Shown piece after piece: positions 14,746 to 17,504 of a stretch of DNA of 47,379 bases. Origin of the DNA: a bacterium (GTDB lineage Bacteria; Patescibacteriota; Patescibacteriia; Patescibacteriales; GWC2-42-12); the NCBI GenBank assembly GCA_030649205.1, contig JAUSGE010000037.1, positions 1 through 47,379 of the forward strand, given 5' to 3'. Under the pieces are notes generated by a model. The model did not search any database and had not been told where the DNA came from. It saw only the letters and a list, made by a program, of their open reading frames with translations. Position 1 is the stretch's first letter, and every line of letters starts with the position of its first letter. Both the position numbers and the translations under genes were made by a program.

Positions 14746-14954
14746 GAGCTCCTGTAAAATTTTTGAGGTTTAACCTCCAAACTGGAGGTTCAACCTCCTG
14801 CGGGACTATGGAGCCCAACCGGATCCGTCAGAGTCCCTTTCAGGAGACTCTGACGATGGAGAAATGCAATGACCACGGCTTAACTCCGGCTGAAGCCGGG
14901 CAGAATAAAATAAAATCTTTTTTGTTTTTATTATTTTGTGTTATAATAAAATTA
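14746..14954. repeat. Divergent gap: double palindrome, hairpins and family A half-element
   Basis: No gene is assigned. In order there is a double palindrome (arms 14765-14777 and 14785-14797, GAGGTTTAACCTC and GAGGTTCAACCTC). Next is a 19-base sequence (14797-14815, CCTGCGGGACTATGGAGCC) that also occurs upstream of the subtilase (496-514). Then come a hairpin GTCAGAGTC...GACTCTGAC (14827-14854) and a family A half-element (14881-14904). The frame of the DUF4012 gene is open through this stretch, but the residues come from repeats. Confidence 0.7.
14942..14947 (+). promoter_or_regulatory. -10 box of the DUF4012 operon, start codon 7 bases away
   Basis: TATAAT at 14942-14947 lies 7 bases before the ATG at 14955, so the predicted start of transcription falls on or next to the start codon. 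The -35 region is T-rich (TTGTTT near 14922) and weak. This supports 14955 as the true start rather than the open frame upstream. Confidence 0.5.
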
Positions 14955-17504
14955 ATGAATAACCCCCTAAACCCCCCTTTGCAAGGGGGACTAAATATAA
15001 AAGTCAACAGCGGCGCCAAGTCGGCCAGGTTTGTGGTGGACTTAAAAAAGGATTTGCCCGTTAAGACATCCGATGTCCAAGGGGACATCGGATGTCCAGA
15101 ATCAAGGCTGGAAAAAATGGCCGAGCTGGATTATGGGAAGATGATAAAGAAGGGGAAGGTGAGGGGAGGAGTTTTAATAAATGATTTAGGCGGCGCGATA
15201 AACAAATTCTGGATCCCTTCCCCGCTTTCGCGAGGACTAAAGGCCGCAGGGATGACAAATAAAAAAGCGGGAATAAAGAAGAATAAAATCCCCCTACCCC
15301 CTTTGCTAAAGGGGGTAAATCAACTGGCGTTTGTGGAATTTGGTAAATTATTATACGCCGGATTTTATAAAATTTGCTACGGCGCGGGTTGGGTGATTAT
15401 GTTTATAGTGAGGCTGGGTTACTTGATCGGAGCGGCGGTGATAAGGAAATTCCGGATTCCCGCCTGCGCGGGAATGACAAGAATGGGGCGGTCGCTCGCG
15501 ATGACAGAGAGGAAAAAAGAAAGAAAAGTAGAAAAAGAGGAAATTGTAATAACAAATAAAATCCCCCTAACCCCCTTTGCTAAAGGGGGCTTAAAGCCGA
15601 TTTTAGTTTTTGCCGGCGCGCTGTTAATAATTATTTTGCCGGTCAAAGCTTTTACTTTTTATAAATCACTGGACTCCGTCAAAGGCCGGGTGCTGGGCGC
15701 CAGCGCCAGCGCCATGAGCGATTTGCTGGCCGGCGGCCAATCGGCGGCCAATTTTGACTTTAGCCAGGCGGATAAAAATTTCACGCAAGCCGGCGAAAAT
15801 TTTTTAACCGCGCAAAACCAGCTGGCTGACATCAACGGCCTGATCCTTGCTCTGGCGGCCTTAGCGCCGGATAAAAATGTCAGGCTGGCCGCGGCCGGCA
15901 AGCATATCCTGAAGGCCGGGGAACTAAGCGCCGAAGCCGGAAAAAATTTAAGCCTGGCCCTGTTCGGACTGACTGGTTGGCAAGAAAAGACACCGAGTGT
16001 CCTAAGGACACTCGGTGTCCAAAGCCAGCTGGCCGCGGACAACTTAAAAGGATTAGCCGCGGAGCTAAACCAAATAGACAGCGGCTTGATTCCGAGTGAA
16101 TATCAAAAAAATTTCATTTTGCTGAAGCAGAAAGTTTTTGAGCTGAACAGCGGCTTAAATCAATTTATCGGTTTAGCCGATACTTTGGCGATTTTTTTGG
16201 GCGCCGAACAGGATAAACGCTATCTGTTGGTCTTTCAAAACAATTCGGAACTGCGCGCCAGCGGCGGCTTTATCGGCAGTTACGCGATCATGGATTTTTC
16301 CCAAGGGCGGATTAAAAATATTTCCGCGCCGGGCGGGGGCAGTTACGATACTGACGCCGGCCTGCTAAAAAAAATAAAATCCCCGGAACCTTTGCGCTTG
16401 GTCAGGCCGGACTGGCATTTTTGGGACGCTAATTGGTGGCCGGACTGGCCCACCAGCGCCCGCAAACTGGCCTGGTTTTATGAAAATAGCGGCGGTTCCA
16501 CGGTGGACGGCGTCATCAGCCTGACGCCCACGGTTATGGAACGGCTTTTAAAGGTAATCGGCCCGATTGACATGAAGGAACAATACGGCATAATTTTTGA
16601 CGCGGATAATTTCTGGCTGGAAACGCAAAAACTGTCGGAGCAAAAACCGGATGTCACCAAACAGCCTAAAAAAATAATCGGCGATTTAATGAGCGCCATA
16701 ATCAGCGAATTGCCGAAAAGGCTGGGCCAAGGCAATTTGCTTGAGCTGCTTAAAGCGGGGCAGGAGTCGCTGGACGACAAAAATATTTTGTTTTATTTTA
16801 CTGATTCCGAGCTGCAAAGCCAAGCGGCCGAGCTGGGCTGGGCTGGAAAAATAAAAGACGCGGCCGGCGATTACTTAAGCGTGGTTAATACCAATATCGC
16901 CGGGCAAAAAAGCGACCGAAAAATTAATCAGCAAATTTCTCACTTGGCCGAAGTTCAGGCGGACGGCGCGATCATTGACACCTTAACCGTCAGGCGGACG
17001 CATACCGGCGCCAAAGGCGAACCGTTTTCCGGCGCGCGCAACGTTAACTGGATGAGAATTTACGTGCCGGCCGGCTCCGAACTGCTGTCGGCAGAAGGCT
17101 TTAAACCCTTGGACCAAATATTTTTTAAACCCGCCGAAAGCGGCTGGCTGGACGACCCGGACGTAGCGGCCGGCCAAAACAGCGAGCGGACGGATGAAGC
17201 GACTAAAACCTTAATTTATAGCGAATCCGGCAAAACCGTTTTCGCTAATTGGTCGCAATTGGATCCGGGCGAGTCGGTGGAAATAAATATAAAATACCGC
17301 CTGCCTTTCAGGCTGGACGGCGGCCAGGGCAAGCTCTGCTCCTATTCACTGCTGGCGCAAAAACAACCGGGCATGAATTCGTCGTCACTTGCCAGCGCCT
17401 TAAAATTAAGCCATAATTTTAAGGCGGTCTGGCAGGATAATCTGCCGCTTAATGAAGCTTTTGACGGCGATAAAATTATGGCGGCGGTGATGGAGGAAAA
17501 ATGA
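14955..17504 (+). CDS. DUF4012 domain membrane protein with a repeat-derived N-terminus
   Basis: 849 residues. The N-terminal ~210 residues contain two hydrophobic segments (about 134-163, then 214-235) and at least seven peptides encoded by palindromic repeats (NNPLNPPLQGG, SDVQGDIGCP, FWIPSPLSRG, KIPLPPLLKG, FRIPACAGMT, GRSLAMTE, KIPLTPFAKG); an eighth lies at about 345-355. After the second membrane segment comes KGRVLGAS, a helical region, then the DUF4012 domain (about 410-830) with YLLVFQNNSELRASGGFIGSY and a YDTDAGLL/WWPDWP region. The domain is thought to lie outside the membrane and is often found with exopolysaccharide genes. Its biochemical role is unknown. The next gene starts one base after the stop. 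The N-terminal repeats look tolerated rather than functional. Confidence 0.85.
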   Translation: MNNPLNPPLQGGLNIKVNSGAKSARFVVDLKKDLPVKTSDVQGDIGCPESRLEKMAELDYGKMIKKGKVRGGVLINDLGGAINKFWIPSPLSRGLKAAGMTNKKAGIKKNKIPLPPLLKGVNQLAFVEFGKLLYAGFYKICYGAGWVIMFIVRLGYLIGAAVIRKFRIPACAGMTRMGRSLAMTERKKERKVEKEEIVITNKIPLTPFAKGGLKPILVFAGALLIIILPVKAFTFYKSLDSVKGRVLGASASAMSDLLAGGQSAANFDFSQADKNFTQAGENFLTAQNQLADINGLILALAALAPDKNVRLAAAGKHILKAGELSAEAGKNLSLALFGLTGWQEKTPSVLRTLGVQSQLAADNLKGLAAELNQIDSGLIPSEYQKNFILLKQKVFELNSGLNQFIGLADTLAIFLGAEQDKRYLLVFQNNSELRASGGFIGSYAIMDFSQGRIKNISAPGGGSYDTDAGLLKKIKSPEPLRLVRPDWHFWDANWWPDWPTSARKLAWFYENSGGSTVDGVISLTPTVMERLLKVIGPIDMKEQYGIIFDADNFWLETQKLSEQKPDVTKQPKKIIGDLMSAIISELPKRLGQGNLLELLKAGQESLDDKNILFYFTDSELQSQAAELGWAGKIKDAAGDYLSVVNTNIAGQKSDRKINQQISHLAEVQADGAIIDTLTVRRTHTGAKGEPFSGARNVNWMRIYVPAGSELLSAEGFKPLDQIFFKPAESGWLDDPDVAAGQNSERTDEATKTLIYSESGKTVFANWSQLDPGESVEINIKYRLPFRLDGGQGKLCSYSLLAQKQPGMNSSSLASALKLSHNFKAVWQDNLPLNEAFDGDKIMAAVMEEK
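14960..15592. repeat. Cluster of seven palindromic elements inside the DUF4012 gene
   Basis: In order: family D at 14960-14990; family E double palindrome at 15065-15096 (arms GACATCCGATGTC/GACATCGGATGTC); family B at 15207-15260; D at 15287-15321; B at 15449-15482; a family C fragment at 15485-15510 (CGGTCGCTCGCGATGACAG); D at 15559-15592. All are read through in the same frame with no stop codon. Confidence 0.85.
15989..16019. repeat. Family E double palindrome in the DUF4012 coding region
   Basis: Arms GACACCGAGTGTC (15989-16001) and GACACTCGGTGTC (16007-16019) flank a 5-base loop CTAAG. The same two arms, in the opposite order, form the element at 532-562 upstream of the subtilase. Here it encodes TPSVLRTLGV within the helical region before the DUF4012 domain. 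Confidence 0.88.

Follow-up and report, generated by a model that had tools for sequence, protein, structure and literature searches.

How did palindromic genomic repeats come to be read in frame in the N-terminal coding sequence of a conserved bacterial membrane protein, and did they build a new part of that protein or settle in an old one? The question is raised by a gene in the window, by which we mean the whole 47,379-nt stretch that was analyzed; it is contig C40 of the 1.22-Mb genome of an uncultured, Falkowbacteria-like member of the Patescibacteria (50 contigs, ~98% complete). Pfam PF13196 (DUF4012) matches the product at aa 419–543 (E=1.4e-27). DUF4012 has been tentatively tied to envelope polysaccharide genes (PMC6744442), and a fold search with the model of the protein gave low TM-scores throughout and no convincing match. 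Homologues are present in 139 of the 145 relatives searched, and 12 of the 12 other genomes of the same family carry one. The first-pass annotation had described seven palindromic repeats of families B, C, D and E that run in a single frame without a stop codon, and all seven were found at 14961–15596 in the order it gave. It had overlooked an eighth one downstream of the third membrane helix, a perfect E palindrome (15986–16021) that is likewise in frame. The features are as follows.

14881–14904, plus strand: A repeat of the GCAG variant, 5' of the start and intergenic if ATG 14955 is the start
14942–14947, plus strand: TATAAT, 7 nt 5' of the ATG, read from the sequence
14955–17504, plus strand: gene of the DUF4012 membrane protein, 849 aa, ATG start
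14961–14993, plus strand: D repeat 1, in frame, NPLNPPLQGGL, between the start codon and the first conserved block, where orthologues have fewer residues
14994–15065, plus strand: ancestral block NIKVNSGAKSARFVVDLKKDLPVK, which aligns with same-family orthologues; its FVVDL motif is kept in a 38-sequence alignment
15064–15097, plus strand: E repeat 1, in frame, TSDVQGDIGC, with 14-nt perfect arms
15102–15158, plus strand: ancestral block RLEKMAELDYGKMIKKGK, from the orthologue alignment
15207–15260, plus strand: composite B repeat, in frame, FWIPSPLSRGLKAAGMTN; the G009 orthologue has one at the corresponding position
15286–15319, plus strand: D repeat 2, in frame, IPLPPLLKGV, found with the D pattern
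15318–15449, plus strand: ancestral membrane hairpin NQLAFVEFGKLLYAGFYKICYGAGWVIMFIVRLGYLIGAAVIRK, kept in same-family orthologues; helix 125–165 in the model
15448–15480, plus strand: B repeat 2 (CGTC/dRS3-like), in frame, FRIPACAGMT
15490–15508, plus strand: C repeat, 3' fragment, in frame, SLAMT, too short to score by itself
15560–15596, plus strand: D repeat 3, in frame, IPLTPFAKGGLK
15591–15665, plus strand: third membrane helix LKPILVFAGALLIIILPVKAFTFYK, ancestral by orthologue alignments and the model
15986–16021, plus strand: E repeat 2, in frame, KTPSVLRTLGV, with perfect arms of 15 nt, between helices in the part that precedes DUF4012

As had been proposed, these families are true repeats of the genome, and copy counts bear this out for the D pattern and for the core of composite B. 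With up to 3 mismatches the D pattern gave 164+128 raw matches in the genome (some of them overlapping) against 2+2 for a reversed control. The claim that the N-terminus was assembled largely from repeats was overstated, as they make up 244 of the 639 nt (38%) of the coding stretch up to the third membrane helix, less than half. Their clustering nevertheless exceeds chance. At 0.25 in-gene repeats per kb, 0.16 repeats are expected in 646 nt, and five were found by strict patterns. When repeats were placed uniformly, a maximum of five anywhere was reached in only 5 of 2,000 placements. Two more palindromes lie directly upstream of the gene, at window positions 14765–14797 (GAGGTTNAACCTCC type) and 14826–14855 (GTCAGAGTC type), and the first of these types recurs in frame near L133:5295–5328.

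The alignment with orthologues supports ATG 14955 as the start: their own starts line up with it, a few residues ahead of a common N-(I/L)-K-(V/I) motif. The TATAAT upstream is a possible −10 box of a leaderless transcript; a consensus scan found no two-hexamer promoter at this site. We aligned 11 orthologues from the 12 other same-family genomes. Between the repeats, the complete orthologues have blocks in common: N(I/L)K(V/I)-x-SxRFVVDLK near the start and QLAFxxxxKxxYxxxYKICYxxGWxxxF further on, and most of them also have xLEKxAELDYGK between these two. The (S/P)xF(V/L)(V/I)DL motif near the start is still visible across the wider orthologue set. The protein has 212 residues before the third membrane helix, and eight complete orthologues have 177, 217, 230, 235, 240, 248, 257 and 268. 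Because orthologues without these repeats have N-termini of similar length, no new extension arose through the repeats. Homologues from other genera likewise carry the same N-terminal blocks without these repeats. The alignment and the length comparison together speak strongly against a new N-terminal extension built by repeats. In several orthologues the membrane hairpin is followed by an extra amphipathic stretch of some 25–40 residues, which is missing here. B repeat 2, the C fragment and D repeat 3 occupy its place, so some ancestral linker was apparently replaced or lost, and some repeats after the hairpin may have replaced rather than merely joined ancestral sequence. E repeat 2 leaves the net length nearly unchanged relative to orthologues.

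The conserved blocks are separated by linkers, and it is in these that the repeats lie. In an AlphaFold2 model the pLDDT is below 50 at residues 1–24, 33–64, 66–115 and 166–212, and nearly all of the seven N-terminal repeats are inside these segments. The seven thus sit mostly in linkers that are predicted to be disordered, and they are well supported as tolerated insertions. E repeat 2 is an exception to this rule because it is located in a confidently modelled helical region, at the start of the predicted helix 346–372. Linkers of orthologues from other genera hold repeats of their own: C-type in L036 (DCFVPRVKPGAKGAPRND), L035 (MRGPRND) and L037 (TPRND), D-type in L033 (PPLPPLSGG) and L038 (PPSRPFYQGG), and B-type in L053 (WIPAFAGMT). 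These mostly differ from genus to genus. All 12 of the B-, C- and D-type repeats detected in 37 other orthologues precede the third membrane helix, in 22.1 of 98.0 kb (binomial p=1.7e-8), a value to be read with the shared ancestry of these genes in mind, which makes the 12 less than fully independent events. Counts of generic hairpins gave a weaker enrichment in the linkers, and family-specific counts were used in their place. In the G017 orthologue (L018/L044) the N-terminal linker has a tandem peptide, TRKHENTKTLKHENTK, apparently from a repeat type outside A–E.

One insertion is common to two genomes. The G009 orthologue has the composite B element of 15207–15260 at the corresponding site, with 32 identical bases in the core and 16 identical residues, and the flanking linker residues differ. 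Its core has 3 copies in this genome, 8 in G009 and none in the ten other same-family genomes tested. G009 also gives the best DUF4012 match (61%) and has a D insert in LigA in common. The shared element is most simply explained by vertical descent from one ancestor of both genomes; the coincidence could also reflect two independent insertions. The stems differ by a paired silent change that keeps the stem (ATCCC/GGGAT here, ATTCC/GGAAT in G009, L004), and this could be due to hairpin-templated repair or to two source subtypes.

The DUF4012 gene is one of many carriers. At least one in-frame repeat was present in 42 of the 336 sampled genes. Carriers identified by Pfam are LigA, PheT, CysS, UvrB, a UvrD/PD-(D/E)XK helicase-nuclease, RecG and TrmD, and further a MurG-type glycosyltransferase, a Mur ligase and class I synthetases. 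Empty sites were seen in relatives for LigA, PheT and TrmD. LigA reads ILNPPTPLSKGGEGELNYY where relatives have ILPGEKFNYY, and PheT reads EKQTPLIPLLKGDKRGLGPINL where relatives have EKKYKLNQGPINL; both have nine extra residues. PheT, the phenylalanyl-tRNA synthetase beta chain (L123:461–2995), has five D and two E inserts, and orthologues have an empty site at most of these places. Set against solved structures of the same enzymes, UvrB contains two D inserts in place of a short loop and CysS contains one of ~11 residues. In the DNA ligase of G007 (L147), the loop that has a single D copy in the genome of the window contains a tandem series of several D-like copies, with TPLTPLIKGENS repeated. 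An ORF cut at the end of its stretch and without a Pfam match (L133:4910–7000) has nine in-frame A, C and D repeats, including two A tandem pairs; its four coding A copies all read CAG and not the stop-making TAG.

The first-pass annotation had also suggested comparing the families by the share of their copies that is coding. We sampled 354 kb of the genome, which with the window gives 402 kb or 33%, and called genes with a simple home-made hexamer model (coding density 0.90). Copies inside called genes were 6 of 53 for A, 7 of 31 for B, 14 of 50 for C, 47 of 64 for D and 18 of 25 for E; the stretches were picked partly for D hits, which biases copy densities upward and affects the comparison between families less, and the strict family patterns undercount degraded copies. 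D and E are thus mostly coding, and A, B and C mostly intergenic (A, B and C together 27 of 134; D against these three, Fisher p=6e-13). Among the six A copies placed in genes, two were rejected: that in L131 is ordinary CysS sequence and that in the window is upstream of the true start. The contrast of D with B and C recurs in a second genome, G004, where 134 kb sampled around D hits had 28 of 50 D copies in genes, 1 of 6 for B and 1 of 14 for C. D is plentiful in some genomes of the same family and absent from many others in the order. Stop-codon content was rejected as the cause of the coding bias of D, since by inspection B and C have more stop-free frames and yet are less often coding. 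A repeat length fixed at a multiple of three was also rejected: in this genome the D copies within genes tend towards 27 nt (17 of 30 measured), G004 has no such bias, and E is mostly 31–32 nt. We put forward, as a speculative idea that we consider rather unlikely, that D and E are mobile palindromes adapted to residence within coding sequence. The peptides they encode, either rich in proline and glycine or short and polar, together with their mode of insertion, would let most copies persist in coding sequence and make them a continuing source of protein loops in reduced genomes. The coding bias is a comparison of surviving copies, in which target preference and tolerance are mixed.

Two Y1/HUH transposase genes in the genome are candidate movers of families A and E. 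The first (L133, 205–774; G000:C41; PF01797) is bracketed by A repeats and ends in a stop codon within an A repeat, and with these GTAG-type repeats it forms a REPtron-like arrangement. The second (L113, 1279–1932; G000:C33) has an E element in frame close to the HUH motif and E half-copies just after the stop and upstream; its product is possibly the mover of family E. No candidate mover for D was found in the genome, and we know of no mover for B, C or D. The D and E consensus sequences had no matches in public plasmids. Against phage records the repeat consensus sequences gave weak matches only, the best of them for B in a Microcystis phage record. CGTC REPs, for their part, appear without a dedicated transposase (PMC3733652).

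As a whole, these observations are best explained by an old DUF4012 protein whose linkers gathered in-frame palindromic repeats as passengers, to which we assign a probability of about 0.86. The membrane protein would be old and vertically inherited, with an N-terminal cytoplasmic segment (conserved start motif, short helix and membrane hairpin) whose long linkers would accept almost any in-frame peptide. Several unrelated palindromic families would have spread through the genomes of the lineage and inserted again and again. Survival would have been limited to in-frame insertions without a stop codon, and the linkers would have gathered these. Peptides such as NPPLxPLxKGG, IPACAGMT and TPSVLRTLGV would then most likely be passive passengers. 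Three parts of this account are inferred: translation of the repeats, an active process behind their movement, and their neutrality. Of the two readings that the first-pass annotation had offered, a new N-terminal extension did not survive the comparison of blocks and lengths among orthologues. The other, that insertions are tolerated as in Rickettsia, agrees with the variable low-confidence linkers, the other repeats in orthologue linkers and the inserts in housekeeping enzymes.

Other explanations have points in their favour. The repeat-derived share of the N-terminal coding stretch (38%) and the composite B element, with its 16 residues kept in G009 amid differing linker residues, would fit a recruitment of the repeats as a new, functional N-terminal extension; we regard this as very improbable, because the N-terminus is of ancestral origin and most orthologues reach at least its length without these repeats, the same linkers hold different repeats or none in orthologues, and the repeat segments are predicted to be disordered. 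It is equally hard to credit that the repeats are non-coding, with translation starting downstream or the gene a decaying pseudogene, even though PMC3733652 warns that REPs close to N-termini frequently fall outside the real coding frame. Blocks of conserved protein sequence separate the repeats, beginning right behind the first, orthologues start at the same place, and the DUF4012 part is intact. The 849-codon frame is moreover open through all eight repeats, which is unlikely to be accidental because a random frame passes with a chance of only ~0.03; for each element only some plus-strand frames are open.

A regulatory role as mRNA hairpins within the coding sequence, with the peptides as by-products, would account for the good preservation of the palindromes and for the silent paired change that keeps the composite B stem between the window and G009. 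The family, number and place of the repeats vary between orthologues, however, and the paired change is explained equally well by two source subtypes or by hairpin-templated repair, so that we give this account only a slim chance.

By analogy, the phenomenon is that of protein-coding palindromes as known from Rickettsia and from intragenic REPs. The elements are palindromic with many genomic copies, they occur both between genes and in frame in conserved genes, and homologues have empty sites. The Rickettsia palindromic elements (RPEs), as summarized in PMC2229807 from Ogata et al. 2000, likewise lie between genes and, stop-free and in frame, in conserved genes. They measure 105–146 bp in that summary and the elements here ~26–54 bp; unlike what it describes, a single protein here has collected four unrelated families, in a host that belongs to the Patescibacteria. 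Rickettsia Gmk has been reported to be translated and active with its palindromic insert (PMC2229807). Intragenic REPs of the GTAG and CGTC superfamilies are closer in size (20–40 bp), and the REPs found inside ORFs, many in repair and tRNA-related genes, also hit UvrB, UvrD, DNA ligase and synthetase genes (PMC3733652). REPs are mostly intergenic in that survey, whereas D and E are mostly coding here, and the GTAG/CGTC tag is absent from the D and E copies listed. Family A has both features of GTAG REPs: GTAG at one palindrome end (CCGGCTAAAGCCGGGTAG copies; about half read GCAG), and a Y1/HUH gene that it flanks. For family B, a copy in the window, CGTCATTCCTGCGAAGGCAGGAATCCA, agrees with the CGTC REPs, compared by their description only (CGTC/TGTC tag, 8–9 bp stem beginning AT, tail CCA; PMC3733652), and CGTC-1 elements have been equated with dRS3 of Neisseria and RPE-6 of R. 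conorii (PMC3733652).

The coding palindromic repeats of Wolbachia (Ogata et al. 2005, as described in PMC3733652) also belong to a reduced, host-dependent bacterium, a likeness by description. Enterobacterial RU/MITE fusions (PMC2759123, PMC2229807) are small mobile sequences joined in frame to genes as well; they are 103–168 bp long, and several have terminal inverted repeats and target duplications. Our search of the open-access literature, with subscription journals outside its scope, found no earlier report of coding palindromes for Patescibacteria and no paper with both 'candidate phyla radiation' and 'repetitive extragenic palindromic'. The filled and empty sites in a dozen same-family genomes form a natural experiment on the tolerance of proteins, and the contrast of D and E with A, B and C makes coding-compatible mobile DNA a testable question. 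Coding palindromes are best known from Rickettsia, Wolbachia and scattered REPs; in the sampled genome of the candidate phyla radiation (CPR) they affect about one gene in eight, including enzymes of replication, repair and translation, and repeat-derived loops are therefore to be expected in annotation, alignment and structure work on CPR bacteria.
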